Part shown: positions 15,501-53,788 of the stretch, one piece after another
How the letters are laid out: every line of letters begins with the position of its first letter
How positions within the stretch are numbered: the first letter of the stretch is position 1
Assembly (NCBI GenBank): GCA_963971405.1
Contig: OZ020489.1
Span: forward strand, 45,214,510 to 45,278,509
Direction: 5' to 3'
Length of the DNA: 64,000 bases
DNA from: Psococerastis gibbosa
Taxonomy: Eukaryota > Arthropoda > Insecta > Psocodea > Psocidae
Notes under the pieces: model-generated
What the model saw: only the letters and a program-made list of their open reading frames with translations
Told to the model about the DNA's origin: nothing
Database searches by the model: none
Made by a program: the position numbers and the translations under genes

Positions 15501-18500
15501 TTATCTTGTCTTGAACCTGGACTTTGCGGTTGATTGTCGAGTTGCCTACCAACCTTGTTGTTTATTCCAGCCGGAACATGCTACGAAGCCCGTGGCTGTA
15601 TACCAAACCAAACCGCTGTCCAGCCAGACCAGTAGCCCGTTGTCGGAGGCGCTCCGGCGAGAACCCAAGAGGTTGGTGGCCAAAGCGAGCGCGTGTGCCT
15701 TCACCCCGACCCGGACTGTCACGGTCGTGCCCCGGAACCCTTCGGCCCCCCCGGCCAAGATCAGTCCGCCCAAGGCTTCGCTGATCCCTGCGAGACCTCC
15801 CAGGGCCAAGCTCAATGTTCTTAATCTCCGCGACTTGATGGTGAATATCTCAAGGATTTTAATCAGGCTCTAGTTACCCGGGTATACTGTATATTGCATG
15901 TTAGCCATTGACACACATTGCTTCTTCCAGTGCGGCCAACTTGAACGCAGTGTACACTATACGGCTATGTTCACTAGCCTCAATAACCGTAGACATGTAG
16001 ATAGGTACCTGACTTATGGCTTAATAACACAATACAGTCTACGCCACAAGATCTGCAGTAGTCGTGAAGTCGTAGTAGTCTTAGCCGTGTTCAAGGATTA
16101 CTCTATAGAATCCGCCTTAGGATATTGTAAACACGGCGAAAGCTTTGAACTCACAACGTGGACAACCGCGGTTCACTCAATCAACGATTCTGCAATTGTG
16201 ATTGAGTGAAAGTGGGTGGCTCTCACCATGAGCCAAATGCATTCAAAATCAAGCTATTAAGAATGCCACCCAGCTCAGGCATGTCATCGATTCCCATTGT
16301 CAAGTCTGCAGAACTCATGTTCAAGCGTTTCTGTTATCAGCCCAGCCTGTTGAATTCATTTGTTTTTCATTCTCCTTTATTTCAATGTTTGCAACCCCAA
16401 AACTTGGTCGCATTTCCTTTGACATGCCCCCTTACGTTTGCCCGCTATTGGCAATACTTAGGTTATGGTCAGGTGCGATATATTCTATTTTATTATCGTT
16501 GTTTAAACTATATTTATCAACAGTATAAACATTAGAGGGCAGCTTCAGACCTACATACTTACATATACAGGTAGTTAGTTACAGAGGCTTTCACGGCCGG
16601 AGTCAGATGATTAAGTATTAGAATCCGGGCTGATAGGCCGTGGGGGATTTGAAGCACGTTTTCAAATCGACCACGGTCTATCAGCCCGAATTCTGCTCCG
16701 TCAGAGGTAGTTATTTCATAATGTGTGAAAAAGTCACAATGAAGCTGCTATGACTATACTGTTAACCATTATTGTTCACTCTCTTGGTCGCAGATGAAAG
16801 AGAAGCCGTCTATCACACAGGATGCGAACAAGATTGTGCAATTTTCGAGCCCCAACCTGCAAGACATCGGCACCACGGCGTCACCCTTGCTGGAGGGGAG
16901 CGTGGTGCAGGCGTTGTGGGAGTGCCAGCATTGCAAAAGGATATTCCGTCGCCAGAAGGTGTTCGAGAACCATATGGCCACCTCACACCAGAAGGTGGAG
17001 CCACTGGAGGAGTTTAGCGACCCCGAGGACATGAATATGATGGCGGGCATTAAGGTGTTTGTTGTCAGCGACGAGGAGAAAGAGACTGTCAGGTGGGTGG
17101 GTTATGGATAGGTGGAGTCTCCGTGGAGGAGTTCAAGAATATGAGCATGATGGCGGGCTTTGAGGGGTTTGTGAGAAAGAGACACTTAGATGAGCGATTA
17201 ATAGATAAGCAGTTACATGGGGCTAATAAGGAATATTGCATTTAACCGCAAACCTTATTTCCCCTCAGACGAGCGCTCCACATTCCCATTATAATTTGAG
17301 TTGTCTCGCTGGACTGTATCAATCAAGCATAGGGGCCTTGAATGGAATTGAATGCTCATTCTTGTGGTTCAAAGTTCAGTTCGCTATTATGTACCAAAAA
17401 TAACACAGCATCGTGGCACAAGGCACGGCCTTTCAATGATTCAGGTCTGAAAATTGGTAGAGGATCCTCTTCCATGACCATTACTCTATATGGGATGTTG
17501 TGGTCAGCAACATTCCTTCTACTGCGGCTGCCACTTAATGTTTAGCTAGTTACCAACCCTTAGGCCAAAGGAGACTGGAAGTTGCTTCCTTATATTTTGA
17601 GGCTCGAAACTTCCCATTCATAATGCAGTTCTCTAACAACTGACTCAACTGAAATGAAATGCAACCACGCTTCCAATGAAATGAATTTTAATGTTGCATA
17701 GAGGTGGCTACCATAAATAAGGAATTTTACGGTGACGAGGAACTAGCAGGGAACTTTTGCGTGACCACTGACGTGACGAAGGACGAAGGTCGAGACTCAT
17801 CATGGGGACGAAGAACTTGGAGGGGGTTAAACCGAATGACGCCCCTTGCGAGATTGAAATACATTTTAATGTTGCAGAGAGGTGGCTAGTATAGATAAGG
17901 AATGGTACGGGGACGAGGAACTAGCAGACGACTTTGGCGAGACCACAGACGTGATGAAGGTCGAGGCTGTCATGGAGACGGAGGAGGTGAAACCAGATGA
18001 CGTCACATGCGAGATGTGCAAACACAAGTTTGTCACGAAGCGTGAGCTGAACCAGCACATAGCCCAGGCCCACAACGTTATAGTCAATTCTATCACCAAG
18101 GTTGTTAGAAGGTACAGTGTGTTTATCTCGTTTTGCATAGTTGTAATACTATTTGTTTCATACAAAACCATGTATTTTAGATTTAAGTGATGCTCATGGG
18201 CTAGTAGCAGCTTTCCATTAGTCGCTGTGGCACGACAACCTGTCGAGGTCTACAAGGTGCCGGAAGCTGATGAAGGTAAGGTGCTACACCGCCAACTTTC
18301 TGAACAGGAAGGAATATTGACTAGAACACGCTACAAGGTATCAGGCTTCAACAAGAAACTAAATGACTCTTTGGAAGTATGTGTGATTGCATTGTTTTAA
18401 ACTCCGAAGCTGTCACCACAGGAGTAGGTACTAGGTGTCCTGACATTTAAACGCTTTACTAATTAGGCGCCATGCGTAATATTTATGAATTTAGGCTAGA

Positions 18501-21500
18501 TTAAGTGAAGTTGTTAGTTGAATATAGGGTTATTCTAGCAGGTCTTTCTTTCTCAGGAGACTCGAGTGGTAAATTATTAATTTTTAATGGAATTTGGAAC
18601 GTTGACTTTCCGATTTATGGTCTAGTTCAGCGCATTCGGTCGGCATTTCAGTCTGCTGGAAATCGGAGTTGTGCAAAGGAGGAATTCTGTCGCGTCACTT
18701 GTCCATTGAGAAATTCCAAGTGCAAGGCTCTGCTATTTAACCACTTTGCTAGACAGTGAGGATGGACCGGGACCACTTGTTGAACTGTCCCCAGCTCCAG
18801 ATTAACAGCACTGAATGCAGATACTGGGATGCTCATCGTCGGTTGACTGAATAGCCTAGGCTAGTAAGTATTTATTTATGCGGTGGCTTGTTATTTGTTT
18901 GCAGAGGAGGCGGTGGGGCCGCAAGGAAGGGGAGCCTCAAGTGCAAAGAGTGCGGCCGGCAGTTCCACCACCGCAACTCGCTGGTGTACCACGAGCGCAG
19001 CCACACCGGCAACAGGGCCTTCCAGTGTGAAGTCTGTGAGAAGGGATTCTTTGCCAGGAGTGCGCTTAAGGTGCGTTGCATGGTTTACCGTGTGCCGTGA
19101 ATTTTCTTTACAGGTTCATTGTGAAAACTATTTATTTTATATTATTTTTATTTAATTTAAAAAAGAGATTAATTTACTGGAGGCAAGTCAATGAATTAAT
19201 GAACGCATACGATTAACCTCTTCAGTCGCCTCTATGGGCAATACCTGCATTGAGTTACGACAGATCTCCGAACGCATGTTGTTTAAGAGACTCGTACAAC
19301 TTTTGAAGCAATTGGGCTTTTGTTCAGATTCAAAGGCGGACTGTGTTTATTTCAGGTGCATATGCGTCAGCATACGGGGGTAAAGCCTTTCAAATGCGAC
19401 TTCTGCAGCCGCGCGTTCCGCCAATGGGGCGATCTCAAGTACCACACCATTTCCATACACTCGGATGAGCGAAACTACCAATGCGAATTCTGCGGGAAGG
19501 ACTTTGCGAGGAAGTACTCGCTGACGGTGCACAGTCGGATACACACCGGTGAACGCAACTATAAGTGTGACTTCTGTGGAAAGAGTTTCCGGGCGGCGTC
19601 CTACTTACAAAACCACCGGCGTATCCACACAGGTAAGCCAACAGAAACCAGTGCCTGGTATTATTGACATTTTTATTTTTTTACGCCCCGAACTAAACTA
19701 TCAAGGACGCGGCCTAGTGGGGTTTGTTTTTGTATTTGAGAAAACATTTTTTAGTACTTTTTTTGGGGGGGTCTTGGGGTTTAAAAAAATTGCCACTGCA
19801 AAAACTTTTTGTGAACCTACATGCCGAATTTCAGAAAATTCTATCGAGTAGTTTGCCCAAATTGAGTTGCCGATTTCGTTAAAACCATGTTTTTCGGTCC
19901 TGGGACCTCAAAACCAGTAAATCCATTGAAATCTCGAAATCTCCCCTTATACTAACGCATAAATAGGAATGCAATGAACTATTCAACAGGCGGGGCTGCC
20001 ATCAGGATACATACGCAGTAAGTTCTGCGCACTTGACCTTGAGTCCCTCGCAATCTGAAAATTCTTATTGTTACCGTATTGGGCTTATGGCGAGAACCAC
20101 TCACTTAGACTAGGAGGCGGCTTCTTGCCTGTGCCCCGCCAGCCTGGTTGCAACTCTACAACCTGCGTCACATATCCTAGACATTTAGCCCATACCGCTA
20201 TCAGCCATACTTAACTTATCGTTAGGTGCCATCTATTCTATTTTAGTATCGTTAATACCATACTATAATTGATAATATTGTATTGTGGTATGGACTCCAA
20301 CCTTCACATGGGTTAGCTCATGTCCCAAATTTGAAAAATCAATTGTGGTCTCTGTAATGGTTTCACCCTAATCCGCCCCTGCCTGGACTGGGGTATTCAA
20401 TAGGTTTCTCACCCAACCCCAGTCCTCAGGCTCCTCAGTGTCCTTCAAATACGCGGCGGTGAGACATCTCTTTGTTGGATAATAGTGCCCTTTTACAATA
20501 CACACATACACATTACACCTTACACACTGTCAACTGTTGAGACGCCGCGGACCGAAGGTAGGTTCATCTCAATTATATTAAAATATACAGTCCACTCATA
20601 AACCAATCGAAGGCGTGTGGTACCGCCACAGTCTCTGATATACGGAACGGTTGAACTGTCCACTAGGCCAATGAAAAAATGATAATACTCCATTGGGCAA
20701 CATTAATATGGTATTTTATTGGCAGGAGAGAAGCCGCATGAGTGCGAAATTTGCGGGAAGCCGTTCCGCGTACGGTCCGACATGAAGCGACATCTACTGA
20801 CTCACAAGGACGGCAGTGCCAAAAAATATCTCCGTCCGAAAATTGAGCCCTCGGCTTCCAATTCCAACAGTGTCGATTCCAAATTTATGACTGAGGTAAG
20901 TATAAGTAAGAATTCAGTCCATTTCACACCGTATTAATAGTTATTAATACCTCTCTAGACACATTTTTGCGTCTTTTCTCTTCAGTGAACTAGTCTCATA
21001 TTGTGGTTTGGATGCAACGTTACCAGTGGGTTACCTCTGTCGGTTCTGCCTATGACAGCTTTTACTGAAATTAAGAGACAATTGTAGGGGAAAATAATTA
21101 TAAGTATAAACATCAAATATCAAGCTGATGATGATCAAAATGATCAGGACAAACAGAAAAAAAAATTCTGGGCATTTTGATGTACCTTTTTCTAACACAG
21201 CTCGACCACAATTATTGAATTTGATTAGTAACAAAAAAAAAGTACTCAGATTTGCCCGTAATAGGTTACTCTTACAAATATTACTGTGTTTATTTGTTTA
21301 TTAATGCCTTGTAATTGTCAATTTCAATACTAAATTGACTTTCGGTTATGATATTATCCACGTTCAACTGCTCAAGCATGCCCATTTCCAGTTGGAACTC
21401 ATAAAATCATTAAATATGTAACTTTTTTTTTATAAAAATTTGGTCCAATTAATGTAAAGTTACCTGACGGAGCAGCCCTTAACGTTATACTATGTTCCTC

Positions 21501-21700
21501 ACGTGCAGGTTACTGAAGGAGAGCCGGGTATGGACGATATACCGAAAGTGGAGGAGCTAGAAGTTAGCACCGTCGAGGGTATTCTTTCGGAGGAGACTGT
21601 GCGCGCCTCAGACCGTTTACAGGAGGAACTACAGTTCATACCGGGTGAGGGTCAGCGAGAACCCAACACTCTGTACTTCTGGCAAGTGTTCCCGACATAG
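9595..21700 (+). CDS. Nine-finger C2H2 zinc-finger protein, 11 exons
   Basis: Probable nuclear DNA-binding transcription factor of 881 residues. Exons: 9595-9971, 10781-10946, 11411-11644, 15121-15381, 15571-15840, 16794-17092, 17878-18111, 18905-19070, 19356-19632, 20726-20895, 21509-21700; every junction is GT/AG and keeps frame. The ATG is the first one after an in-frame TAA at 9571. Residues 1-320 are acidic or low-complexity, with no known domain. Nine C2H2 fingers begin near residues 324, 480, 580, 627, 655, 683, 712, 740 and 768. Fingers 1-3 stand alone, each in its own exon. Fingers 4-9 form an array with TGE/TG-R linkers (for example TGERNYKCDFCGKSF). The C-terminal exon is acidic and ends FWQVFPT. 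I do not recognise the orthologue. Intron 3 carries a LINE, and broken exon copies lie in introns 6 and downstream. Confidence 0.88.
11986..12255 (-). repeat. Retroelement 3' fragment in intron 3
   Basis: On the minus strand this has an (ATT)n run, a poly-T stretch, the GGCTTTGTGGCACCGGTTC block, and a reading frame with YNPRKDRRTEG. Copies sharing these blocks lie at about 14390-14480 and 40050-40140, and a related coding stretch lies at 62630-62830. It looks like the 3' end of a non-LTR family, whose members share a trinucleotide tail. Confidence 0.55.
12576..14152 (-). pseudogene. Decayed non-LTR retrotransposon, reverse transcriptase
   Basis: Three minus-strand frame segments (14152-13250, 13240-12914, 12845-12576) together span the middle and end of a LINE reverse transcriptase. 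Recognisable pieces are KSSGFDKISSELIKY, ENYRPLYLNSTIGKVIELVI, the SFADDCAL catalytic motif near 13048, and TKYLGLLIDNHLSWDQHV near the thumb. Two frameshifts and the absence of the endonuclease mark it as dead. The style is Jockey/CR1-like, but the clade is not resolved. It sits antisense in intron 3 of the zinc-finger gene. Confidence 0.85.
14390..14545 (-). repeat. Second copy of the (ATT)n-tailed retroelement end
   Basis: A (TAA)n run at 14391-14413 is followed by the same CGTGTATTTAACCAAAA block found at 40050 and, diverged, at 12178. It lies just past the 5' side of the decayed LINE and may be an independent insertion. Confidence 0.5.
14573..15000 (-). other. Minus-strand ORF of uncertain origin in intron 3
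   Basis: A 139-codon frame includes DLISFSREFHWWQTFTKK and YKAVLCQGILNTSPF. The pattern resembles the C-terminal tail of some LINE ORFs, but I cannot assign it. It lacks splice context for a host gene. An (AT)n and (ATTT)n microsatellite follows at 15005-15037. Confidence 0.3.
16615..16700. repeat. Near-perfect inverted repeat (large hairpin) in intron 5
   Basis: Arms GAATCCGGGCTGATAGGCCG... (from 16621) and its partner ending in ...TATCAGCCCGAATTC (to about 16693) are complementary over roughly 32 bases with about four mismatches, around a short GCACG loop. It lies in intron 5 of the zinc-finger gene and is probably the end of a mobile element. Confidence 0.7.
17111..17188 (+). pseudogene. 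Broken copy of the 3' part of zinc-finger exon 6
   Basis: GTGGAGTCTCCGTGGAGGAG, then AGCATGATGGCGGGC and GAGAAAGAGAC repeat the order of GTGGAGCCACTGGAGGAG, AATATGATGGCGGGC and GAGAAAGAGAC in the live exon (16996-17090), with internal deletions. It begins less than 20 bases after the live donor site and has no open frame of its own. Confidence 0.75.
17685..17866 (+). pseudogene. Decayed tandem copy of zinc-finger exon 7
   Basis: This stretch aligns with the live exon 7 at an offset of 178 bases. GAGGTGGCTACCATAAATAA matches GAGGTGGCTAGTATAGATAA, followed by shared GACGAGGAACTAGCAG and GTGAAACC-like blocks. The acceptor GTTGCAG has become GTTGCAT. The finger's C-x2-C is lost (CEM-C replaced by CEIE), and the next available AG shifts into a stop. 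The frame nevertheless stays open for about 60 codons, suggesting fairly recent loss. Confidence 0.85.
19190..19320 (-). repeat. SINE-like dispersed repeat, copy 1
   Basis: This is an inverted, degraded copy of a family seen at 22760-22935 (-), 23450-23660 (+), 30285-30455 (+) and 61925-62095 (+). Shared blocks are GCGAGTCTTTACACGCCATG, ATCGGAGACGT, TACAGAGGCGACT and GATACATTCATTAAA. Full copies begin GATGGCCAGGTGGTA, reminiscent of a tRNA-type box A with one mismatch. A tRNA-derived SINE is possible. Confidence 0.55.
19700..19975 (-). repeat. Inverted copy of the 190-600 repeat
   Basis: The minus strand reads TTTCGAGATTTCAATGGATT, GTCCCAGGACC and ATAGAATTTTCTGAAATTCG, matching the blocks of the repeat at the left edge. 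A shorter relative lies at about 51640-51715. It lies in intron 9 of the zinc-finger gene. Confidence 0.6.
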
Positions 21701-24310
21701 AAGCGCGCCACCTCCTCACGGAGGTCTGGAATTATAAAGACTGTGAGGCGTTGACTCTGTTGAGGTATCGCCGTTACTGTAGCTCACTCCGAGAGAGTGA
21801 ATTTGTTCCCAACATTGAAGCGCGTCACCTCCTCACGCGGAGGTGCAAAGAATTGCTAAATAGTGTATTGTATTATGGTGCTGTGCCTGTCTTACTTAGT
21901 CATTTGTAATAGTGTAGCCCCCTAGATAATTTGTTTTAGCATAATAGGTTACTTGACAATTTATGAAAATCTAATTTTAGTGCAATTTATTTATTTTGAC
22001 CCTTTACAAATTTTTTAACCTTATTTAGTGGGGGGTAATTTTTCGCGTCATTTTAAGATTGATGATTAAAAAGCGGGTTGTTGTGGGATTGGAATGTGGT
22101 CATTTGTGATGCCGCGGGGGCGGCCAGTTATTAGTTATTATTTTTTAATGACTTTTTATGGACCCAGGCCTACTTAGGTCCCTTGACTTCGGACATTATT
22201 TGTATTGTTTCCGTATGAATTTTTGGCCATTGGCACCCTGGCATACGTTCTCGATGTCAACCTACACCGGCTACAAGCGATAATGGACAAGCCGAGACAA
22301 GCTTACCATTGCCGTAATGAAACAGGCGAAAGCATGACTTAACCAAGTATAGATACGAGTCGGGGGGCGGCCAGTGACAACCTGTCTGTTGGCGTTTTGG
22401 CTCCTGTAATCCGAAGCTAATAAACACTCATAGGTATTTATTAAGATATAAAATTGTTCATGTAAATAGCATATTCTATTATTATTGTTAACCTTTAAGC
22501 TACCTTATCTAGCTTATTTTATATTTTGTTACAACTGTCAGGAACTTGTCAACAGCCAGATATAGTGACGGTTATCTCCCGAATTGCGTGTATCGAAATT
22601 GTTCATCTCCCTTCAGAAACACAGAGTGAATGTCGGTAGAGAGACGGCTCGAACGGCCGCAGACCTGGTTACTGGTTAAACTGGGTCATGGTGGTCCTAC
22701 CGTCTGCCGGCACTGCAATGAGTCCGAGAACACATTATTATTATTCATTTATTCTAATGGTTAATCGCGCACAAACACTATAATGAATGTATCCGATTAA
22801 CCTATTCAATCGCCTCACTAAGTAACCTTACAGGTACTTGTATTGAGTTACGACACGTCTCCGATCGCAAGGTGTGTAGAGACTCGCACAAGTGCAAGCA
22901 CGCTACCACCTGGCCACTGAAGTCGTGTGGTTGGCCACTGTCCACCCCTGTGGTGGGCGCGGTTGGACTGTTTTGGGGCTGCCTACATCGACCAGGTATT
23001 TAGCTGCTGTTTTTGAACAGTTGATCAATTGGCAATGGCCATAATATCAATGATTGGGGTACACTCCAATAATTATGCTGTTCAAAGAGTCCCAAGACCT
23101 ATGTCAGCTCAACTCTATAATAATAATAATACAACTGTCAAGTAACCTAGTCAGCTGTAAATAATGTGCCTAGTACGACTATTGTGAATATAAAAGCGAA
23201 TATTTTGAAACTATTATCTATTAACTTACTTACGACTTTATTAGGAAAAAACCCTTTGTCAGAGTAGATGATACTGAACGTAAATTTAAATTTTTGCCTT
23301 GAAAACTGCTTGCCTTATAAAAATAGTTAGGCTACTTGGTCGAACTTTCTTGGCTACAAAAGTTATAATAATTACCGTATAATTATTAAATATATAGATC
23401 TAAAACAAGCAATATTTTAATAATAATTACAATTTACATCGTCTTTGAACTTGTGCGAGTCTTTACACGCCATGCGATCGGAGATGTATCGTAACTTAGC
23501 ATGGGTACCAACCTACAGAAGTAGCTAGAGTCAATCGCATCTTGTTGAGTTGCAATCTATCGATTGGTTTGCAGTGAATGTTGTATTCTTGTTCGCCACT
23601 CCTGTGCGGTCAATCGCATGCATTCATTAAGTTGTATACGATTAACCTTGCTTCTATTTTTTTAAAAATTAGTTCGCTAAAGTCGTGTTTCGAGAATGCA
23701 ACTATAACACCAGGTCCCAGGAATGCTGGTAACTTCATGTTTGGTAAAAATTCTGTTTGACTGGAATTAGTCGGCTGAAATCAAGGGGATCGACAAGTTG
23801 GACACCTGCAGGAGTGCTTTGGTTAAAATTATGCGGAATAATAAATTGCACGGTTATTGTGGTACCACTAAATCAACTTTACTGTGATCGATGGATTATC
23901 GGCAATCATTTGCATTACATGCTACTATCAGCAACATTCCAAAAATGGTACTCTTGAGATTGCTGTTGTCAACGATATACATAAATTGGCTGTTGTGCGT
24001 TAAATTGTTTTTATGTTGTAAGACTGTTGCTAGGACGTTAATATATTTTATTTCTCAAATAAGGAAATGTAATATTATTTTTTAAAGCTGCCTGAAAATA
24101 TAATTCAGTATCCTACATGACGGAAGAACTATTTCCCGCGCATTTTTGGCATTCTAACAAGGCTGTGAGCAGTTGACTACTTCAACTAGCCGCCATTTTC
24201 CTGTTTATAATTTATATGTTTACATTACAGAAACAGGGGGCAAGTTGGATTTTGATTTCCAATGACTTTTCGCAGTTTTTCCTCAGCAATCTTTATTCTA
24301 ATTTTTGAAA
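21701..24310. other. Intergenic region between zinc-finger gene and SLC38A10
   Basis: It holds the 3' UTR of the zinc-finger gene with a partial duplication (21690-21716 repeated at 21809-21837), a copy of the 7375 repeat (about 22140-22300), and two SINE-like copies (22760-22935 minus, 23450-23660 plus). A short stretch near 22690-22730 reads CRHCNESEN, like a LINE C-terminal cysteine motif. AATAAA at 22419-22424 is a possible but repeat-embedded poly(A) signal. No gene was recognised. Confidence 0.5.
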
Positions 24311-27300
24311 ATGACGACCCAATCAGGGTATGTAATGACCCTGGCAAACAGTATAATCGGCGTAAGCCTGCTAGCGATGCCCTACTGTTTCAAACAGGTA
24401 AGCTTACCTTTCGATTTGTATGGGCTACTTCTTTAGTGAACTTAGGCTTATGGTCTGCCCACGCATGTGCTCCACTATTCTGAAGATAAGATAGTCGATA
24501 GTAAAATTTATAGGTGACGAGGGACCTTTAAATTTTAAGGACGATTAACATTAACGTACAGTAATGGTAAATTAGCAAGTCTGGCCGATTGGCGGAACCA
24601 CTGCATTAGCATATTCATTCTATAGTAGCCTATATCGCGTGGCAAAATGACCTCACATTTTGACACTAGCTACCGTACGAGAATCGTTGTTAACATTACA
24701 TATAGCTCCTTAAATTTGTCAAAGACGGTTAGGTAAGGCCGGGTAGGGTGTGAGATGGTTGGTCTTTGTCCTGTTTGCAGTGGCAAAACTTCGTAATTTA
24801 TTTATTAGCAGTTCTCGTATACAAATACAGGAAATTATATCAGCGACTCTACTGTTTTGCCTAACTTTTTTTCTTTTTTCCGCGCGGCCCTACGGGAGTC
24901 GGCGAGGATGTATGGCATTGGCGCTTCAACAGCCCTCTATCAAGGGCGTCTTGGTGTGAGAGTATGAGCTGTCACCTGCTCCATATCTGTCAGTATCTTT
25001 ATCTACGGCGTCATCTTCAATCTTCCTCTATTCCTGTTTCCTGGGACCTCAACCCTTTTCAGGAGATGAGTTTTGCCCCCGGCCCCTTAGGCATGCCCAT
25101 GCCTTAAGAAGCGTTTTCCCTGAGATTGAGAACTCTGGTCGTTTCTTTGCCTGTCTGTCAGGGCCTAGGATGTATAATAACCTGTCAAAAAGTTGAAGAA
25201 GATCCTGAATAAAAATTGAACTAGGAATATAACCAATTGAGATTTATAGTAAATATTATTGATGTAATGATTATGGAAAAAGTCGGCTGCCAACCGCTTG
25301 ACTATGAAATCCAGATCTCCAATTAGTCACAAAGCCTCAATCCAGAATTACCCGTTTGAGCCAACAAATGTCTCCAAAATTATGTGTGATTCTCGTCTTG
25401 TTGCAGTGCGGCATACTGCTGGGTATCCTATTGCTGATTGGTTGCAACATCGTGACCCGCCTGGCCTGCTACTTTCTCATCAAGTCGGCGGTCATGTGCC
25501 GGCGGAAGAACTTTGAGTTCGTCGCCTACCACGCGTTCGGTGGTCCTGGGAAGTTGCTCGTCGAGCTGGGTATCATCGGGTTCCTGATGGGCACCTGCGT
25601 AGCCTTTTTTGTCGTCATTGGTGACCTGGCGCCCGCCATCATATCCAACATGTTTGAGTTGGAGAATAGTCAGTATTTAAGGACGGTTTTGCTTATTGGT
25701 AAGTACCAAAATAAAATTTCTCAGGAAATATTGACCTTAGAGCCATTGGTACACCTGTAGAACAAATGTTTCTCTACATTTTGATTCATGCTATTTTATA
25801 TGTTGCTGTCACTTACACGGTTTGACCTCATTACTGTAAATTAGACGCCTTCAAAGCTGTGCCAAACCGCGTTAGTGACGGCCTCATTAGGTGCCCATTC
25901 CACATACGTACAACGTCAATGGGATGATAGGTCATGTTCGTTCTGAATGTGTACTTCCGTCGACGATACGTTTGAAAGTATGCGGAGCGGTCTCCTAGGT
26001 TGAAGCATGATACTGTATATTTTTTTTAAGCGTCTGGAAATACGCGTTAATATTTTACTGATATGGAGTTTAACGTCGCTTTTGAAATTTCATATTCACC
26101 AACGCTTTCGCCTTTTTTCATGTTTTTATGATGTCCTCAACATCGTCGTGTGATATCGGGGTCAGAAATATAGTATTTGTTTTTTAATTTATTTCCATTT
26201 CTGGTTCGGTGGGGTTGTTATACTGTTCTCCAGGGGGTGGTCAATGGTGAAGTGTTCATTGAATGTGTTCAAGTTTGATGGAGTCACTTTGATTCTTATA
26301 TATTGCTCTTAACTGTGGAGCCGTGGGGCTGGCTTATTTATCATGCCCGCTCTCCATGCTGTTCTATACATCTACATGCCGTAGTCGTACCTGGCGGTAA
26401 CCTTTCCATTAATAATCTAATTTTGTTATTTCAGTGGCCGGTCTGTTTATCATCCTGCCGTTGTCATTGGTACGTAACATGGAGTCACTGGCGGTCGTAT
26501 CCACGCTCTCCATGCTGTTCTACATATCACTACTGATCAAACTGTTGGTTGAGTCATTGCCGCACTTGACCTCCGCCGATTGGACGTCGTCCGTTAACTT
26601 TTGGCGACCGCAAGGCATTCTGCAAATTCTACCCATTTTTGGCGTCGCTTTATCATGTCAAACGTACGTGCGCTTATCATTAGTTTTGTACCAGGGGACT
26701 ATGTAAAGATGGCACATTCAGTGGTAAATACGTAAAACAAATATATAAAGAGTCCTTAAACCGATAGTTTAATACAAAACCTAAAAAAGCAGGGATATGA
26801 GCTAAGGCAAACGCAAGTAACCAGCAATATTGAATTTTTAGGGAAAGAAAGGTATGAAGTGTGAGTACTATTCGAAGAAGTGACTAGCGCTGACCAGTAT
26901 GTCTCCACGAAGCCGTTGTCGCTTGGCAGTAATCATGGGATTTTCCCTGAGATAATTTGGGAATTGTGCCCTTGACCTGGTCCTGATGGGTCGGTTGATC
27001 GCTGACTTCGATAATTAGCCAACACTTACATGTAATGGCAGAAAAGCCACGGGCAATTGCGAGCGAGCGATATAAAAATCGACTACTGCCCGCGGAGCAA
27101 GTCCCTTGTACTTTAAATAATAATACTTTAATAATGGACAACTTTCGTATAGAAATCCTCCTCTGATTAGCGGGGCGCATCCCAATACTTTACTTTTTGC
27201 TATATTAGCCGTTACGCCTCACCAATAAATCAGAGCGTTGGATTATGTACGAAAGTCATACGTTGCCATGGCAATGTCCTCTCTCTGTAAGATAAGTATG

Positions 27301-30300
27301 GGGATGCGCCCCACCAAACAGCGAGGCAGAGGCCCACCATTTATATTTCCTTTAAGAAAAGTACTGCATTGTAATCGGATTTGTTTTCAGACAAGTATTT
27401 GAAATTCTACAAGTTCTGCCGAACCCAACCCTGGAGCGGATGAACAGTGTCGTACACTCCGCCGTGGGAATGTGCACAGTCATTTACATAGGTAACTCAT
27501 TATTTCTCATAATTGTTGCCCATGCTTTTTTTGGACAGACTAAAACATCTTAGCATACAAATTTGTCCTCCTATTTGACTTTGCGGTAGTTGACATGAGC
27601 ATGATTAAAGGACAAGTGTAGTTGATTTTTAATTACTTGTACATTTATATTTACAACAATGGCAGAGATATGGGCGCTTTGGCGTTGATGGCTTGCTTGT
27701 AGTGGGACGGGTCGTTGCCGACTCCGGACCGCCTGTAGAACGACTCGTAGATGACGTTGACCCGTCCTCGGCGACTTTCCATCAAGGCGGGGTCCATGCC
27801 GTCCACCCTCCAGCCATATTCCCAGTTGCCGCTCTCCATGAAGTAGAACTTTTGTTTGGGGCGCTCCTTATAGCGCTCTATCAAATACTTGTGCTTGCCT
27901 TCTCCCTGTGCGCTGACACCTGACACAAAATTATTCAACGTGAGCTAGACCACTCACAACAACCATTGTTCTTGGAGAATTTGGGCACAGAGAATACGAT
28001 CACTTGAAGTTTCCTGAGAAAGGTTCAGTTTCGACTTAGAAATGGGAGTTTGCAAGGGTCATACTTATGCAGTTTCTTGAAATTTCCAAATATAAGTAAG
28101 AGTAATGCACTGCCACCCCCTCCCCCCCTAAAGGTTTGACTAGATAACACCAGACACCACGTAATATAAAAAATTGCGGGGAATTTAAATCAATTAGATT
28201 ATAATGTATAACTTTTAAAATTTCAAATAAACCCCTGAACACCTTTGCACCTGTCCTCCCCTCCCCCCCCCCTGGATTTAATCCTAGCTACGACCATTCG
28301 GGTAGGTTCTTTTGGTAAGAATGCTGAATGAGTTCGATATACGAGGGAGGGGACATTCTCTCCCGCAAAGGAATTTGTAGTGCCACCTTCTTCGACCAGT
28401 CAAAGCTTTAGTTACTCAACAAGTCTTCTTTTAACCAATCAGACTACGCCTTACAACCACGATGGGTTTTGTTACTTGGAAGCAATTCTGATTGGTCGAA
28501 GGAGACAGGGGCAGGTGGAACCAGAAATACAAAAAAATTCCCATCTCTCCTATATACAGGTAGAACTCGGTGACCAAGTATAAATTTTACTGTATAGTGT
28601 GAGATATGTAATAATTTTGGAAACATGTATAATTTGAAACGAAAACTTTCACCGTACCTGTGTACAACAATTTTCTAACATTCTCCGGGACGGGCCGCAT
28701 TATGTCCGTGTTTATCGGTTCGTCAGGCTCAACCGGGACCAAGACCGGGGCAGGCGGCTTAGCAGGTTCACAGACTGCATTACGTCTACCACCTCCTCCT
28801 TTCTGCTCAACTAAAGGCTAAATATACAAACAAGCTGAAAACATCTCATCTACCGTTTCGGAACTCTTGCCTGTGTTTTCGGATAAGGTGAAATGTGGGG
28901 AAAAAAACTTGACCGTGGTATTTAACGGTAGTTGGTCCTAGTCCCCCTAAGGGCCCCACTCACTATCAATATTCGGTGGCGAACCAAATTACGGCATAAT
29001 GGGGAAAAAGAAATGCTCGTCATTAAAAATAACATGTACGCCATGGAACAAAAAATCTCGCACATCTTTGTTTTTTGAACACATGCAACACACGAACTGC
29101 CCTCAGAGGACCATTTCAACAAGGCATTAGGATTTTCAATAAACTACCCAAGGAAATTGTGTCGCTCCAACATAAAATTTTTAAAGTCAGATTAAGGGCC
29201 ATCCTCCAGAAGGCATGCCCCTATTCCGTGGCTGAGTTCATGCAATTTTTAGATGGTTTACATAAATAGGTAATTTTCAATTATTAAACTTTTTTTTTTT
29301 GTTTAATTAATTCTTCATTAGGTTGTTTGAGACAACTAATTATTTTAGACAATTTACTGTATGACGACGTCGAGAACCTTCATTGTTTTGCACCTTGAGG
29401 TGAAAATGAAATAAATATACGGTATTGTATGTGTATTGTATTGCCTTTTCAGACGCTGGCGATTCTCTTTTTCGATAGCCTTTAGCTACCCAATATTCGG
29501 AACTGGAATTTTTTGAAGTGAAACTTCTTTATCGACGAAGGGAGAGAATCCTTGTTACTCGCCATCTTGGTGACGCGCCATCCTGATTTCTGTACTTATG
29601 GATGACGCTCATTTTTGGGCAGATGTAGAAGGCCTATCTCAATTATACCCATGTCTTCGTCTATTCTTCCTCGTTCAGGCCATTCTATATTTGTTGTGAT
29701 AGGGCAAGGAGTTCGACTTTGGGGGGGGGGGGGGGGGAAGAAACGTGTGGAGGTGCGCCCAAATTTGGCCAGAATTTGCCGATTTTCATCGAAAATAGAC
29801 CTTTTCCAGCCGCGTTTTTTGGGGGTGTTAATATCAATTTGAAAACTTCAAACTACATTAGTTCTTTTCCACCTTTCTTACTCTTTCCAGACATATATTC
29901 AGTTTTCCTATCCGTCCCATCGTTCAGGCTCACATCTTCGTCTATTCTTCTTCTTTCAGGCCATGCTATATTTGTGGTGATCAAGCAAGGAGTTTGGTTT
30001 GGGGGTGTGAAACGTCAGGGGGTGCGCACGATTTTCAACAAAAATAGGCCTCTTTCGGTCGCGTTATTATCTATTTAAAAAATTCAAACTACTTAAGGGC
30101 TTTTCCACATTTTTTTCTCTTTCCAGCCATATATTATGTAAGTGGAATTTAGTAATTTAGGCGTTGTCACGTTAAACTATCGTCTGTAAACCGACTTTAC
30201 AACAGACTTACAGGCAACCAATATAATTAATGAAATGCTATTATAATCTTAGCAAAAATAAGGTAAAATAATTGAATTATGTGTATACATCGACTTGGAT

Positions 30301-39600: not shown

Positions 39601-39989
39601 AACCTACAGTACCTGGATGACGCCATCTACCTCACCAGGTGAGTATAATGCCCGAGCTGTACTCAACCTAGCGAGAGTTCTTCTCAACCTAACTTTGCAT
39701 GGATAACGCTATTTACCTGACCAGGTCAGTACCTGGATAACTGACATATAAGCCACAATAGATAGATTAGGACGCGACTATTACTGAAAATCATAATTTA
39801 GTATATATAACGCAGCTGTATTAGACGGGACTTATTTGTCATTTACACTTTTCAGGCGGTCGCTGGAAGTCCAGCCGCCGGATAAGAACGCGTGGCAGCA
39901 ATATTACACTCTGGGGGAAATTTTCAGGGCCTACGGCCACTACCAGGTATGGCTTAAATAGTTGTAAGCATTTATTTTAACACCAGCAG

Positions 39990-40053
<64 letters not shown>

Positions 40054-42602
40054 GTGTATTTAACCAAAAAAACATTACACATTTTTCTAATAACCGGTGC
40101 CACAAAGCCAAGAAAGGCGCATTGGGATCACCGCACAATTGACTTTATTATATTAGTTTTTAATCTGTAACTGTGAGTAGACTTAAAATATATGCAACAG
40201 GGGAACTCGCCATCATGTGTGTGGGAAAGCAATATACAATCACACTTGGTAAGGATGTAGTACTTCTGTGGAAGGAAAAGGGCGGGGTTGGGAACAAACA
40301 TTAGGAGTGGGAAGCAGTTTTGGAAAATAACCTCATTGGCTAGATTTTTGTTACCATACAAAGCTTTGTTAATTTCTATCATCTCCAATCTATCGAGAGT
40401 TTTTCCCTTTGTTAAAACAGTGTAATATTTTGAAAGTGTCAAAATTGCAAGTGCGGCCATTGTTATATAAAGGATTGGCATTCACCGAATTCCAATCATT
40501 TTTTCAGTCAGTCAGTTATAATAGCGTGGGTACTCCCTTCTCCATAAGCATATCTTCGATAATTCCTGCCCATTCCGAGGTAGGAACATGAGTAAATAAT
40601 GACGTGACATCAAAGGAAACTAGCCTGCTATTGCGGGCCAGGGGATGGTTCTTGAGTTAATTTATCAAAGCTAACGAGTTTTTAACGCCATAGGTAAAAA
40701 TAGGTAAGGCCATAGGTTCAATTCAATAATGCCCTCAGATGATCATTAAGAAAGGTTACTGGGGCATAAAATTGACCCTACAAATGGACGGATTGGCTCA
40801 TTGATTTTTTCATCAGTCATGTTTAATGTTTGTTGGGAGATTAGAGATTGGGACACTTGCTGGAGCTGAGTGCTAGTGAGCTCTTAGTGTCTGAAAGATT
40901 TGTAGATTATTCCTGAAATCACCTTCCACATCTACACGCTATTCTTATGTGTCGGATAAACTATATAATTGTGTGTTGTGTGGTAGGAGGCGTCGCTGCA
41001 CTTGAGACACTCGCTGGAGCTGAAGCCCGAGTTCCAGCCAGCGTTGACGGCCCTCAAAGACATGGAGAGTATTCCTGAGACAACCGTCCACGTCTACACT
41101 CTCCTTATTATAGTCTGTCTCGTAAGTACTATATATCTCACGCTAAAACTTAGAATTTTGTGAAATCGTTCGAGCTAATACAGGGTCTGTCCGGAAAGTA
41201 ATGTCAGTGAATTTTTTTTACGGCTCAAATTTTGGTGGGGGGATCTGGCAACAAGTTCAAACAAGTGCCAGCTGGCTACCGATCGTTGAAGTGGTCGCAT
41301 CAGTTGTTCCATGTGAGTCGGTACAGTAACCCGGTGCAAGACGAAAAAACTAAAAAAAAAAACTGGAGCAGAGTGCTGCGGAAACCATTAAATATAATGT
41401 TGAAGAAGGCTTTCGACGACGATTACCTTTCGGGCAAATTGTCCGGTGCCACAAGGTCTTCGTAGAAGGTTGGGAAGACGCCAACGACGAGCCCCGCGCT
41501 GGACGGCCATAAACCTCTACTAATGTTGTCTGTTGAAGGTTTTAGTAAGGTTTAATTTATCGGAAATCAAAGGGACACTTGCACGTCGATCAGTGTTCAA
41601 CAAGTCACGCACATGTTGCACATTGTCGTTGGTAGTGGAGTTTGAGCGTGGCGCTCGTCGCTGGCGTCTTCCCGACCTTCTGCGAAGGCCTTGTGCCACC
41701 GGAAAATTTGCCTGCCCAAAAGGCTATCGTCGTCGAAAGCCTTCTTTAACATTTTAATGGTTTCCGCAGCACTCTTCTCCAGTTTTACCCAAAACTTGAT
41801 CCCCATCCGTTGCTCAAGCGAACGCTTTTTTTTCTTCTTGCACCGGGTTACTGTACCGACTCACATGGAACAACTGATGTGACCACTACAACGATCGGTA
41901 GCCAGCTGACGCTTGTTGGAACTTGTTGCCAGATCCCTCCACCAAAATCTGAGCCAGTAAAGCGAGTGCTTGCGCGTACAGTCTCCGTAAAAGAAATTCA
42001 CTGACATTACTTTCCGGTCAGACCCTGTATGTCAACGCACTACCTGTATCGTATGTAAACATTGTACCTTCTGTTTTAAATATTGATAAATATGTATTCG
42101 TTTTTCGCCTTGCTTGCCATTTGGTAAGGTGCATTCTATTGAGTAATCGGAGAATTTCACAAAATGGCTGAGCCGACTGTAAGTTTCATGAACTTTAGCT
42201 TGTGGAAACATTGTGCTTCAAGCGGAAACTTGATTTAAGCAATCTGAACAACGTGCTCCATGATTCATACGTAGATGTTTACATTCGGATCGAGATTGCC
42301 AAAAACCTGTCTGGACACTTTTTTCTCCTATCGATGAAGCCAAGGTACCCATTAGATATGTCTGGTCGCGTTTTTCGCAGTTCTGTTCTCTAGCAACTGG
42401 ACTATGCGCGCTCACCCCGGTCGTGACAAAGTTTGGGGTGTACTTACAGGTGTTGGGAGTGCTGCTTGTGATCCTGAGCTCCGTTGACGGCAACTTCGAT
42501 GAAACGAAGACGACGCAGCGGCACTTCAATAGGGCGCTGGCCATGCGCTCCCTCAAGATGGCCGGTTGCAGGGCGGTACGGAGCAAGCGGCCCGTCTGCT
42601 AG
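36680..42602 (+). CDS. Putative lumenal TPR protein with C-terminal membrane anchor
   Basis: 362 residues in six exons: 36680-36954, 38902-39148, 39451-39638, 39856-39946, 40987-41121, 42450-42602; all junctions are GT/AG and keep frame. Residues 5-22 (YVTYLALYVLSFHVF) look like a signal peptide. Residues 90-125 carry three N-glycosylation sequons (NGT, NRS, NFT). A charged helix (about 155-174) precedes a TPR region at 175-295 (YNQIGNFWRIKGDAQKSIEC, then YYTLGEIFRAYGHY). A membrane helix spans about 303-323 (LLIIVCLVLGVLLVILSS), followed by a basic 39-residue tail. The TPR units resemble those of TTC17, but length and architecture differ, so I do not assign orthology. AATAAA lies at 42715-42720. 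Introns hold a LINE, two MITEs and a Penelope fragment. Confidence 0.82.
37330..38035 (-). pseudogene. LINE C-terminal fragment in TPR-gene intron 1
   Basis: Two minus-strand frames (38031-37711 and 37695-37336) encode VSFLGLNIDHMLTWRPHIHK, AYFAVFESRMRYGI and GARLYNHLPSLLR. This order is the thumb and tail of a Jockey/CR1-like reverse transcriptase. One frameshift separates the pieces, and the catalytic part is absent. Confidence 0.8.
38097..38388. mobile_element. Inverted-repeat MITE in TPR-gene intron 1
   Basis: The left end GGTGCACACGGGCGATTTTGCC and the right end ...AATCGTCCGTGTCTACCGGG are inverted relatives. Inner blocks TAGCCATAGGGCTAGCAGAAG and CTTCTGCTATCCCTATGGCTA are also inverted copies. 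Arms of about 90-100 bases flank a short unique centre. Confidence 0.75.
39655..39735 (+). pseudogene. Broken copy of the 3' end of TPR-gene exon 3
   Basis: CTCAACCTAGCGAGAGTTCT, then ATGGATAACGCTATTTACCT and GACCAGGTCAGTACC follow the order of the live exon end and donor (39580-39650). The copy lies directly downstream. Its donor is GTCAGT rather than GTGAGT, and no acceptor precedes it. Confidence 0.8.
39996..40140 (-). repeat. (ATA)n tract and retroelement end
   Basis: More than 15 trinucleotide units (to about 40051) are followed by CGTGTATTTAACCAAAAAAA and the AACCGGTGCCACAAAGCC block shared with 12180-12255 and 14390-14480. On the minus strand the trinucleotide run would be the 3' tail of an inserted retroelement. 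Confidence 0.65.
40130..40720 (-). pseudogene. Penelope-like retroelement fragment in TPR-gene intron 4
   Basis: The minus strand carries LVSFDVTSLFTHVP near 40620, the palm motif of Penelope-type reverse transcriptases. Then comes CNFDTFKILHCFNKGK and LEMIEINKALYGNKNLANE, the C-terminal GIY-YIG endonuclease region; the stretch between them is deleted. Stops and frameshifts are frequent. The GIY-YIG part is related to that in 49958-50260. Confidence 0.75.
40846..40957 (+). pseudogene. Decayed copy of TPR-gene exon 5
   Basis: GACACTTGCTGGAGCTGA, GATTATTCCTGAAATCACC and CACATCTACACGCTATTCTT follow the live exon (40987-41121) segment by segment (GACACTCGCTGGAGCTGA, GAGTATTCCTGAGACAACC, CACGTCTACACTCTCCTT). 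It has stop codons and no splice sites. It lies 30 bases upstream of the live exon. Confidence 0.85.
41181..42027. mobile_element. Palindromic mariner-derived element
   Basis: The ends CAGGGTCTGTCCGGAAAGTA and TACTTTCCGGTCAGACCCTG are inverted, and TA dinucleotides flank the element on both sides (41179-41180, 42028-42029). Both halves derive from the 5' end of one mariner. The right half on the minus strand (41806-41520) encodes the start of the transposase (MGIKFWVKLEKSAAETIKML, then a helix-turn-helix region). The left half is an internally deleted inverted copy. No DDE catalytic domain is present. It occupies intron 5 of the TPR gene. Confidence 0.9.
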
Positions 42603-44619: not shown

Positions 44620-45899
44620 AATTGTCGATCTGTTGCACTTTTTACGAATTCACGACTCCAAAGTCAAAATTAAAATTAAAATTTTCTGAATGTTAGTTAA
44701 TTGTCTTCAATTACTGTAGCAACGTTAGTGGAACGGTTTTAGGATCATCATAGAACAAAATCAAAGCAATAGTTATTGTTATAAATATTATTGGTGATGC
44801 GTTTCTTGAATTTGAGAAATTTATGAAATTTTCATCTTACCATACTGTGTTATAAAATGGATCAACTTGAAAGTAGACAGTTAATATCGAAGTTAAGGGC
44901 ATTCAGACCACAGAAAAGATGAGTGTTAAGTCTTACCAAAGGAAGCAGGCCTAGTAAGAGGAAGCAACTGAAGCAACATTTCCGCATGAACCGTTAGGTA
45001 AGGCAAGCAAATTCACTAGGAGGCATGAATGATGATCTTAAACCTTTGCGAACTATTTAAGGAAGTTGAAAGTTATATATATTATATATAAATACAGAGT
45101 CTAGGAGTCCGTCGAGGTATAAAATCAACAAAAATATAAAGGAAAGAAGACGTCAATAATACTACAATAATCTCGACGAATGTGATGAAAGTATGATAAG
45201 GAACCTCATAATTATGTATATTCATCCTAGGAGCTGACTGTTAAGCTTGGACACCCTGCGACAAGAAATATTAGAGCTTGATGGTCGTTACCAAATGCCC
45301 AAGGAGAGCCTCCGCGCATTTATCACTAGGCGTCTTCATTTCAGGTAAAATAAAAAACACAACCAGTCGGTTGAGGAGACTATTATAAATACACGCATCA
45401 GAAGTGCAGCAGAAACAAAGTAGTCACAATTTAAATGCTGTGCAGATTTAAGATGTTTGACAAAATACAACGTCTTGGTCGAGTCGCCACGCACGCTTTC
45501 TTGGCGTTATAGGTATTTACAAGGAATCCGAAACGCCAGGTCTGAAGGAAATCGTATTGTATACCTTGACGAGACCCTTATTGGTGTGATACACAGAAAC
45601 TCTATTCTGTGGCCTGAACGCTCTTATGTTGACTGTCTACTTTCAAGTTGATCCATTTTATAACACAGTAGGCCTATGGTAAGATGAAAATTTTATAAAT
45701 TTCTCAAATACAAGAAACGCATCACTAATAATATTTATAACAATAAATATTGCTTTGATTTTGTTCAATGATGATCCTAAAACCGTTCCACTAACGTTGC
45801 TACAGTAGTTGAAGACAATTAACTAACATTCAGAAAATTTTAATTTTAATTTTGACATTGGAGTCGTGAATTCGTAAAAAGTGCAACAGATCGACAATT
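44620..45899. mobile_element. DNA transposon with ~265-bp inverted repeats and a DDE transposase remnant
   Basis: Left arm 44620-44882 and right arm 45632-45899 are inverted copies, beginning AATTGTCGATCTGTTGCAC and ending with its complement. The interior plus strand has short frames, one (45457-45651) reading RYLQGIRNARSEGNRIVYLD followed by ETLIGVIHRNSILW. The IVYLDET motif is the second-aspartate region of the IS630/Tc1-like DDE transposase superfamily. Frameshifts and missing N- and C-terminal parts show that it is inactive. Confidence 0.8.
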
Positions 45900-52600: not shown

Positions 52601-53624
52601 CATGTATACTAGAATCTCTACACCGCATGTTTTTCAAGGACTTTTGGCGTAGGCTACAAAGAAAATTCATTGAATATTTATTTAGATAAGCTATTTTGCT
52701 TACATTCGAGAGCCCAGCGGTAGAGTTCCTCTATGAAGTCTTCCGGGTGGTCCCCTCCTAGTCTGCGGTTCTCTATCCGGTGCAAAAACTCAGTGGTGAT
52801 GCCATCCAGGGGGCCTACGTATTTCTTGGCAGTGGAGGGCTGCATCATAGTCTGTTGTACCTGGCTTCGGAAACGGTCCCATTTTTCCCCGTGCCTGGAA
52901 CATATAAAAGGAGGACTCTTCCAGAACCGTAACTTTCGTTACTACTGTTCCCTAGGCCTATAAAGCTACTATAGCTGCAGCTTCCATAGTTATCTCTCTA
53001 TTGTAAATTCGGTTGGAATGCTGATCGGGGAGCCTACGTTACGAATGGGCTGCATCTGCATCATTGTCTCTCATGTCTCACAGCACTGAAAAATAACACA
53101 CGGGACTGCTGAAGAATCGTGTATACTTTTCCAATACTAATTTATGTATTTTTATATGCCAAGCTACGAGCTCGTATTTAGCATTTAACTTACCACTATG
53201 TAACTTTAGCAACTTTATTCAATATTTAAAGGGAGAAACCAAACTTAATTTAAGACTTCAACAGCAAAACTTGCATTTCCTTAAACTACAGTACCTGCGG
53301 GCTCAGGGCTGCGTGTTTTTATAAAATCATCAACAATATCACTAATAATATAAAATAAATGACAATGGAATACTCACACTCCGACAACCCCCAGGTCGTC
53401 ACCAAAGAAGTTCTTGTGCATGACCGTCTTGTAGTACTTGACAGTGGGCATACTAGGCCTGTGCGGCAACACTTCCTCCCGTTTGAACACACGCTCAATC
53501 TCCTGGGGGTTGAACACGAACACGAGGTCGGGGTGGCCGATCAACCCTCGCAGACTCACGATGTCCCCGTACTGCTGGTGCAAAGACGCTGTGATTTGGT
53601 CCAGCTTGTTGAGCTGGTAATGAC
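46657..53624 (-). CDS. Cytochrome P450, mitochondrial clan (CYP12/49/301-like), N-terminal exon missing
   Basis: Eight minus-strand exons: 53624-53378, 52894-52704, 52299-52107, 51620-51464, 50900-50731, 49767-49689, 49038-48823, 46773-46657 (TGA). All are GT/AG and in frame, giving about 456 residues. Landmarks: EKWDRFRSQVQQ (helix C), VGIDTTS (helix I oxygen-activation motif, split exactly by an intron), KESLR (ExxR, helix K), PERW, and FGYGRRTCLGRR (haem-binding, Cys ligand). The K-helix-to-meander sequence and FGYGRRxCLGRR type are those of arthropod mitochondrial P450s, which take electrons from adrenodoxin. The first coding exon, with the targeting peptide and PGP region, was not found; exon 53624 begins in phase 1. 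The substrate is unknown. Introns hold many transposons. Confidence 0.9.
47095..47450. mobile_element. Foldback MITE, copy 2
   Basis: It starts GGAAATTGGCAGCCCGAAAT and ends with its complement (ATTTCGGGCTGCCAATTTCC). The arms of about 150 bases match 1775-2130. It lies in the last intron of the P450 gene. The flanks AAGAGTGTA and CACTCTTAA extend the inverted symmetry. Confidence 0.85.
47480..48420 (+). repeat. Dispersed repeat (GATGGCGACCAATGTTCG family), copy 1
   Basis: It contains GGGAGATTCATCTACCTATT, GACCCCCGGCCTGAGC, an (AT)n run and ACTTCCGTAAATATTATCCG. It is matched end to end by 56615-57260 (same strand) and by 57750-58275 (opposite strand). A hAT-like insert occupies 48045-48346. 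The repeat body has no coding frame. Confidence 0.85.
48045..48346. mobile_element. hAT-like MITE inside the dispersed repeat
   Basis: Its ends CAGGGGCGTAAAGTT and AACTTTACGCCTCTG are inverted and follow the CAGnGGCG pattern of hAT elements. The two other copies of the host repeat (57184-57205 and, inverted, 55013-55040) read straight across this site without the insert. A clean 8-bp duplication is not seen, but TAGCGT occurs on both sides. Confidence 0.7.
49150..49465 (-). pseudogene. LINE C-terminal fragment in a P450 intron
   Basis: The minus strand reads KRAKWVGHLLRHENLVHTII, then EGTIRRGWSKKEFIDQL. This is the tail typical of many insect LINE ORF2 proteins (RxKWxGHLxRH). No other part is present. 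Confidence 0.75.
49848..50347 (-). mobile_element. Penelope-like element fragment with inverted terminal arms and ribozyme-like motifs
   Basis: Arms 49848-49946 and 50249-50347 (99 bases each) are inverted copies. The interior minus strand (50260-49958) encodes the C-terminal GIY-YIG nuclease part of a Penelope-like protein (SAFADHLSSNSHSCNFEDFK, LLDWLESLEIIKAIRNN, TNDIMFQTVSPLLDL). Each arm holds CTGATGA, a short stem-loop, then GAAACCGGTC, the conserved pieces of a hammerhead ribozyme (minus 49927-49891; plus 50267-50304). Penelope-like elements are known to carry hammerheads in their terminal repeats. The reverse transcriptase is absent. Confidence 0.8.
52400..52560 (-). repeat. Diverged Penelope-type terminal repeat
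   Basis: On the minus strand GATGATGATGGTATCTATTA, then ACTGTAACCGGTTAC and ATTTTATTGTGGATCAG run parallel to the arm of the 49848-50347 element (GATGATGGATTTTATCC, GAAACCGGTCAC, ATTTTACTGTGGATCA). The ribozyme core is damaged (GAAAC has become GTAAC). It lies in an intron of the P450 gene. Confidence 0.55.
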
Positions 53625-53660
53625 CTGTAACCAGGAATAGTTATAGGATTCAATTATTTT

Positions 53661-53788
53661 TCCTGTGCGGCCGGGGGGTTGATAACGAACACGAGGTCAG
53701 CCCTCCCAGTTCCAACATGTTCCCAAACTGTTGGGGTAGGGAGGCTGTGATCTGGTTCAACTTGTTGAGTTGCTAGTGGTCTGAATAG
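53661..53788 (-). pseudogene. Decayed copy of P450 exon 53378-53624
   Basis: Plus-strand CTGTGCGGCCGGGGGGTTGA, AACGAACACGAGGTC, GAGGCTGTGATCTGGTTCAA and CTTGTTGAGTTG match CTGTGCGGC, TGGGGGTTGA, ACGAACACGAGGTC, GACGCTGTGATTTGGTCCAG and CTTGTTGAGCTG of the live exon. A deletion of about 45 bases lies near one end and the acceptor is lost. It begins less than 40 bases from the live exon. Confidence 0.85.

Follow-up and report, generated by a model that had tools for sequence, protein, structure and literature searches.

Background

The doublets that Thomas et al. reportedly described in PNAS in 2004 are said to consist of exact 25-100 bp matches and to have been studied for the most part in mammals. 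Break repair gives rise to small tandem duplications, described as fresh mutations and as the most frequent class of short insertion (<100 bp) in human (PMC8355091, which cites Messer and Arndt 2007). A human survey of repair-mediated duplications, in which mobile elements served as markers and pairs within 50 bp were discarded as tandem, listed 824 proximal copies (median length 147 bp), few of which had an exon as donor (PMC2671141). Where exons are concerned, Exonize classifies "intronic" and "inter-boundary" duplications and names degenerate exons (PMC12343006), and the share of exonic nucleotides with a homolog outside annotated exons (identity 80% or higher) has been put at 0.08% in D. 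melanogaster and ~2% in human (PMC9013439), by a method different from the present one. The stretch considered here -- 64,000 nucleotides of the insect Psococerastis gibbosa, C14:45214510-45278509 of a 409-Mb assembly of 68 contigs, hereafter the window -- contains genes in which broken, decayed copies of exon sequence lie near the live exon. These copies are very probably old, small and ordinary tandem duplications of genomic DNA whose unit happened to cross an exon edge. The basis for this is the head-to-tail order and short spacing of the pairs, the intron flank and splice site included in several of them and the frameshifting indels, and further that the one copy tested is single-copy and that similar pairs occur in unrelated genes as well as outside called coding sequence.

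Exon copies in the window

Seven degraded exon copies near live exons had been reported in an earlier note made from the sequence alone, and all seven do resemble the exon named for them, both by blastn against the window and in gapped alignments (Table 1). Each of 28 window exons was also compared with its own +/-1.5 kb, using 60 local Markov shuffles per exon; five of the seven pairs are solid by this test (p 7e-7 or less), that of the nested gene SPMIP1 is probable and that of SLC38A10 marginal. Exons 18948 and 19310 are also significant (~9e-6), though what they match is one another, as C2H2 fingers; the remaining 19 of the 28 exons did not go below p = 0.006 in this test. Self-blast with dust on loses the 39562/39647 pair, which rests on blastn, gapped alignment, this exon test and the tile test described below. 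The gene content looks animal-like on our reading, Hsp20, P450, SPMIP1, C2H2 fingers and an amino-acid transporter domain being matched in Pfam. For SLC38A10 and the TPR gene the names are taken from the earlier note, as is the placing of the SPMIP1 exon part, the Pfam match of that gene sitting on the neighbouring exon 27654-27944.

Most of the copies (6/7) lie within ~180 bases of the live exon, as had been claimed, and the internal deletions are seen in the gapped alignments, together with frameshifts. The description of their splice sites as dead holds for the copy at 40846, which has lost its GT, and fails for those at 39655 and 53661, which keep GT or AG at the matching place. An eighth pair, 21687/21804, had been overlooked. 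A genome search with the 381 bases around it (21500-21880) gave one match, and an assembly-wide search (409 Mb) with the longest copy, 17685-17866, returned only itself and the live exon; this speaks against a mobile element for these two, which were the ones searched singly genome-wide.

Table 1. Live exon segments of the window and the copies paired with them; the last two columns give the blastn match of each copy as first reported to the live exon, and the exon entered in the shuffle test with its p
Feature	Position	Strand	Alignment and remarks	Blastn	Shuffle test
Zinc-finger gene, 3' end of live exon with 5' splice site	16993-17109	+	unit of 117-bp tandem pair		16794-17091: p = 7e-7
Decayed copy of 16993-17109, directly downstream	17110-17206	+	75/95 identical; deletions of 9 and 13 bases	17111-17188 vs 16994-17062: 70%, E 9e-6	
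Zinc-finger gene, 5' part of live exon with intron flank and 3' splice site	17855-18026	+	blastn, gapped alignment		17877-18112: p = 4e-16
Decayed upstream copy of 17855-18026, abutting, period 178	17677-17863	+	143/170 identical; gaps of 7 and 1 break frame	17685-17866 vs 17863-18026: 76%, E 3e-30	
Zinc-finger gene, end of last visible coding stretch with start of 3' flank	21687-21744	+	gapped alignment		
Copy of 21687-21744, period 117	21804-21866	+	50/56 identical; tile-test p = 1e-7		
SLC38A10, part of live exon	26466-26533	+	gapped alignment		exon vs 26302-26375: p = 0.003, marginal after 28 tests (8e-5 in tile test)
Possible decayed upstream copy of 26466-26533, marginal	26302-26375	+	53/64 identical, 6 gaps	26321-26378 vs 26499-26528: 87% over 30 bases, E 1e-4	
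SPMIP1 (nested gene), part of exon	30677-30721	-			
Probable copy of 30677-30721, 1233 bp away	29444-29488	-	ungapped 35/45; p = 2e-5	29451-29488 vs 30684-30721: 82%, E 5e-6	
TPR gene, 3' end of live exon with 5' splice site	39562-39645	+	gapped alignment		39452-39640: p = 8e-13
Decayed downstream copy of 39562-39645, abutting but for one base, period 85	39647-39731	+	69/84; one-base frameshift	39655-39735 vs 39570-39645: 82%, E 3e-15	
TPR gene, live exon with 5' splice site	41002-41135	+	gapped alignment		40989-41122: p = 1e-10
Decayed upstream copy of most of 41002-41135, period 154, 5' splice site lost	40848-40967	+	92/118	40846-40957 vs 41002-41111: 69%, E 3e-10	
P450 gene, 5' part of live exon with 3' splice site	53502-53644	-	P450 identity of gene by Pfam		53417-53626: p = 2e-15
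Decayed upstream copy of 53502-53644, period 169, 13-base deletion	53671-53797	-	98/127	53661-53788 vs 53502-53627: 68%, E 1e-13	

Similar pairs elsewhere in the genome

An independent control was drawn from other genes of the same genome, found by protein-family searches: 81 stretches of 3.1-4.2 kb around Pfam-matched exons, and two longer ones. Overlap removal (L041 lies within L082) left 73 non-redundant stretches (264 kb) beside the window, or 328 kb with the window included. The L-numbers are labels of these sampled stretches, and the coordinates that go with them are local to each; L083 is the 10-kb left neighbour of the window, and L082 and L083, which are without annotation, were entered as non-coding. 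The coding model used for the sample calls ~20% false bases (9.2 kb in reversed sequence vs 46.3 kb).

Decayed copies beside live exons were found in three genes among the 73 stretches, two of the ubiquitin-protease family (L033 and L055) and one ABC transporter gene (L074). In the last of these, decayed copies of two exons lie within ~1 kb at 680-1700 (C2:50.2 Mb), several from one exon and a single one from the Walker-A exon. Counted by family, loci with an exon copy number 2/26 for UCH, 1/16 for ABC and 0/29 for kinases; in L082 and L083, neither of them annotated, no exon copy was found. Eight sample pairs lie outside called coding sequence: L002, L033 1043/1129, L035, L051, L056, L060 and two in L083. 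The one solid non-coding case among them is L035, a 92-bp tandem array that was found once by genome search and whose frames are mostly stop-broken. L002, L051, L056, both L083 pairs and the window pairs at 35066 and 63088 may be mobile. The process reaches beyond the window, which agrees with the earlier suggestion of short-range duplication genome-wide; the companion remark that introns show no local copies has against it these eight pairs and two weak window pairs away from exons (35066/36066 and 63088/63202).

Four repeats in the sampled stretches were noted in more detail. L033 1030-1215 holds an 86-bp tandem pair, 83% identical and open in one frame on the strand opposite to the gene; it may be coding and have escaped recognition as such. 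In the 10 kb adjoining the window on its left, L083 2087-2240 and 2476-2650 form a non-coding direct pair, 86% identical. At L015 3078-3407 lies a mobile element that contains a direct repeat of ~167 bp and has at least 40 scored genome matches, and L016 and L018 (C13:14.22 and 14.24 Mb), kinase-gene stretches ~23 kb apart that are 99% identical over 3 kb, are a recent duplication.

Anatomy of the duplications

Most pairs are head-to-tail at a spacing of ~80-240 bp (median 150 bp, range 82-389, in a hand list of 19 from which SPMIP1 and the two weak window pairs are left out). The aligned ends lie 0-35 bp apart in five of the seven pairs first reported, 90 bp apart in SLC38A10 and 1.2 kb apart in SPMIP1; three window pairs, like the non-coding ones of L060 and L035, abut or almost do. 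Direct orientation dominates: when unmasked pairs scoring at least 40 bits and no more than 400 bp apart are counted, 16 rows are direct (13 places, one of them the mobile L015) vs 3 inverted, and at 36 bits and up to 1500 bp there are 24 direct and 11 inverted.

The alignments extend over the exon edge into the intron in 5/6 window pairs and 1/3 locus pairs counted. The intron bases within the unit number 18 and 22 in the zinc-finger pairs, 5 and 11 in the TPR pairs, 15 in P450 and 11 in L055, with none counted for SLC38A10, L033 and L074; in L033 the splice site TTGCAG falls, on our reading, inside the aligned unit. Since intron bases are part of the unit, the thing duplicated is a piece of the chromosome and not a piece of an mRNA, and the intron flank in those five window pairs rules out processed retrocopies, the SLC38A10 alignment being the one that reaches none. 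The frame is broken by indels of 1, 7 and 13 bases.

A consistent side is taken by the copies of units that include exactly one exon edge: a unit with the 5' splice site has its decayed copy downstream and a unit with the 3' splice site has it upstream, so that in 6/6 cases (window 16993, 17855, 39562 and 53502; loci L033 and L055) the spare copy lies where splicing would discard it. The chance of such agreement is 1 in 64. This count is confined to the six one-edge pairs; the 40848/41002 pair spans almost the entire exon and is uninformative, the SLC38A10 alignment reaches no edge, and the SPMIP1, 21687 and L074 pairs are left out. Differences at codon positions 1, 2 and 3, pooled over nine exon pairs (six of the window and three of the loci, leaving out the second L074 exon, SPMIP1 and 21687), are 64/311, 41/308 and 75/304, with the reservation that the L033 row has two open frames and a coding range running ~ten bases into the presumed intron. 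We read the excess at third positions as synonymous change in the live exon together with near-neutral decay of the copy.

The course of events would then be that a genomic unit crossing an exon edge is duplicated in tandem regardless of gene structure. With the 5' splice site in the unit, the spare copy would come to lie downstream of the exon, and with the 3' one upstream. Splicing would leave this spare copy in the intron and the mRNA unchanged, and the copy, being harmless, would persist and then decay about neutrally. Judging from the literature, the molecular source would most likely be staggered double-strand breaks repaired by fill-in and end-joining, or else slippage during replication.

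Rates in coding and non-coding sequence

Tiles of 160 bases were compared with their own 1-kb flanks in window and sample (2021 tiles), with only 16 shuffles per tile, so that the tile p-values are rough. Hits at p < 1e-4 were merged into events by hand, each event entering the Fisher tests as a single tile. The event counts leave out mobile elements, masked targets and zinc-finger to zinc-finger matches (L015 as mobile; L043, L061 and one L083 pair for a masked target), and repeat-masked tiles were likewise excluded (92 in the window, 6 with hits; 424 in the sample, 44 with hits). The mask sees only repeats common within the 328 kb, and L015 escaped it; L060 was retained among the events despite the dispersed element inside its unit. 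There remained 305 coding and 892 non-coding tiles in the sample, and 47 and 261 in the window.

The coding and non-coding rates of the sample as annotated do not differ (4/305, from L033, L055 and two events in L074, vs 8/892; Fisher p = 0.51). The sample is small (12 events or fewer), and an exon preference beyond visibility is without support there. Visibility was modelled by simulated decay starting from real window exons and non-coding stretches, with indel rate and lengths assumed. The area under the detection curve at 38 bits is 0.39 for exon pairs with the live side fixed, or 0.35 with synonymous change allowed, and 0.20 for intron pairs, and over both thresholds the exon/intron factor is 1.7-2.0. 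In this model exon copies stay visible longer, as the earlier note had proposed, because the live exon hardly decays; it suggests that they stand out partly since selection keeps one of the two copies intact. With a factor of 1.8, the exon share of the sample (4/12) matches the expected 38%.

Several points weigh against taking the copies for ordinary tandem duplications. The SPMIP1 pair, 1.2 kb apart, has no tandem arrangement. The exon copies do not exceed 90% identity (ungapped values 77-89%), and a steady process should leave young ones too. Past constraint on the copies would give similarly uneven codon positions and would look alike. L033 1043/1129 (51% GC) and L002 carry long open frames and may be coding, not non-coding, while L060 and one L083 pair may be mobile; with the first two moved to coding the sample gives 6/308 vs 6/889 (p = 0.09), and with all four doubtful pairs shifted in favour of an exon preference 6/308 vs 4/889 (p = 0.02). 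The window, in turn, has 7/47 coding vs 2/261 non-coding events, the latter weak (p = 4e-5; the local pairs 4240-4406 and 29633-30135, which match other sequence, were set aside as repeats), and its coding rate exceeds that of the sample (Fisher p = 1e-4); window and sample pooled give 11/352 vs 10/1153 (p = 0.003). That first count took the window exons from a hand list of 27 intervals, some of them missed by the model, and the sample exons from the model, which favours the window coding count. Recounted with the same coding model, with window and sample annotated alike, the exon excess of the window shrinks, and it still amounts to 6/54 vs 3/254 (p = 0.001; p = 0.001 also against the sample coding rate). 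A visibility factor of 1.8 would lead one to expect 24% exon events in the window, where 7/9 were observed (P = 0.001), or 28% under like annotation, where 6/9 were observed (P = 0.017).

These window figures, together with two non-coding pairs contained in the 10 kb of the left neighbour L083, argue for the alternative that exon edges, or this stretch of chromosome, are truly duplicated more often, for instance through breaks or replication faults concentrated there. We consider it unlikely. In the independent sample the two rates are alike, and the most favourable reclassification (6/10 exon events) lies within what visibility alone would give (P = 0.14); the non-coding rate of the window does not differ from the sample's (p = 1.0); the kinase loci have no exon copy, though the exons matched there, mostly long ones, may make one less likely; and the window is a discovery set, chosen since the reader saw exon copies there. 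The concentration of exon pairs in it is without explanation except for this choice and is most simply a selection effect. That exon edges in the region or the genome are tandem-duplicated several times more often than introns, beyond the visibility effect, seems quite unlikely to us, and the preferential duplication of exons that had been put forward is not borne out by the sample. Of the intron control proposed with it, the sample half came out with rates alike, near the result named at the time as contrary to the claim, and the window half differs under either annotation.

If an exon-edge excess were true, introns would have a standing supply of half-exons, a source for new exons, and if the local excess held genome-wide it would mean a mutational bias at exon edges, with raw material for new or alternative exons. 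As ordinary tandem duplications, the pairs illustrate cleanly how introns come to hold half-exons left by small duplications, and they warn that copies of exons seem commoner than those of introns as one side hardly decays.

Alternatively, the copies could be mutually exclusive exons that are dead or dying. The splice-site-like AG or GT kept in several of them, the exon copies standing in a row in the L074 ABC gene, like clusters of alternative exons, and the second codon positions, which differ least, are consistent with it. Most copies, however, are part of an exon with one edge, they are not complete exons with both splice sites and an open frame, their frame is lost through gaps of 1, 7 and 13 bases, and pairs outside called coding sequence have decayed in a similar way, all of which makes this origin very unlikely. 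Assembly errors, haplotype leftovers, mobile-element fragments or retrocopies are an extremely unlikely source even in a genome many of whose local repeats are mobile (L015, and the dispersed element of L060), given that identities of 77-89% with indels are too low for haplotype or assembly doubling, that 17685-17866 was found nowhere besides its own site and the live exon, and that several copies hold intron sequence and so are not retrocopies.

Other repeats in the window

A long inverted repeat at 41178-42030 folds on itself, with 70% identity over 937 aligned columns, and is probably a hairpin-type mobile element. The inverted pair 44620-44919 and 45601-45899, 91.5% identical and 981 bp apart, resembles the terminal inverted repeats of a short element.

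Comparison with known systems

The earlier note knew of no named description of such a pattern at this density. Duplications of this sort are described in PMC8355091, PMC2671141 and PMC12343006, and the named kinds -- small tandem duplications, doublets, repair-mediated duplications and degenerate exon duplications -- already cover the pattern, with one local excess; no report giving such a density of copies beside exons was found in a literature search thin on subscription journals. With doublets, as they are said to be, the pairs share the abundance of short local duplications; unlike them, they are diverged.

Like the tandem duplications of break repair (PMC8355091), those described here are local, on the same strand and head-to-tail; those are described as fresh, whereas the present copies are old and decayed and have a spacing of mostly 80-240 bp. 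As in repair-mediated duplications, the donor lies within 5 kb and the length is up to 619 bp, but that kind, as surveyed in PMC2671141, is more than 50 bp apart and most pairs here are tandem or almost so; SLC38A10 and SPMIP1 would pass. Another known kind is that of tandem exon duplications and unannotated or degenerate exons (PMC12343006, PMC9013439). Exon sequence repeated in the adjoining intron is common to both, and both the intronic and the inter-boundary class of Exonize fit, though copies of full exons are central to Exonize and the copies here are mostly partial and frame-broken. Splice signals are also involved in the tandem genomic duplications by which introns are gained (PMC4974935); the outcome there is a new intron, whereas here the existing splicing would discard the spare copy.

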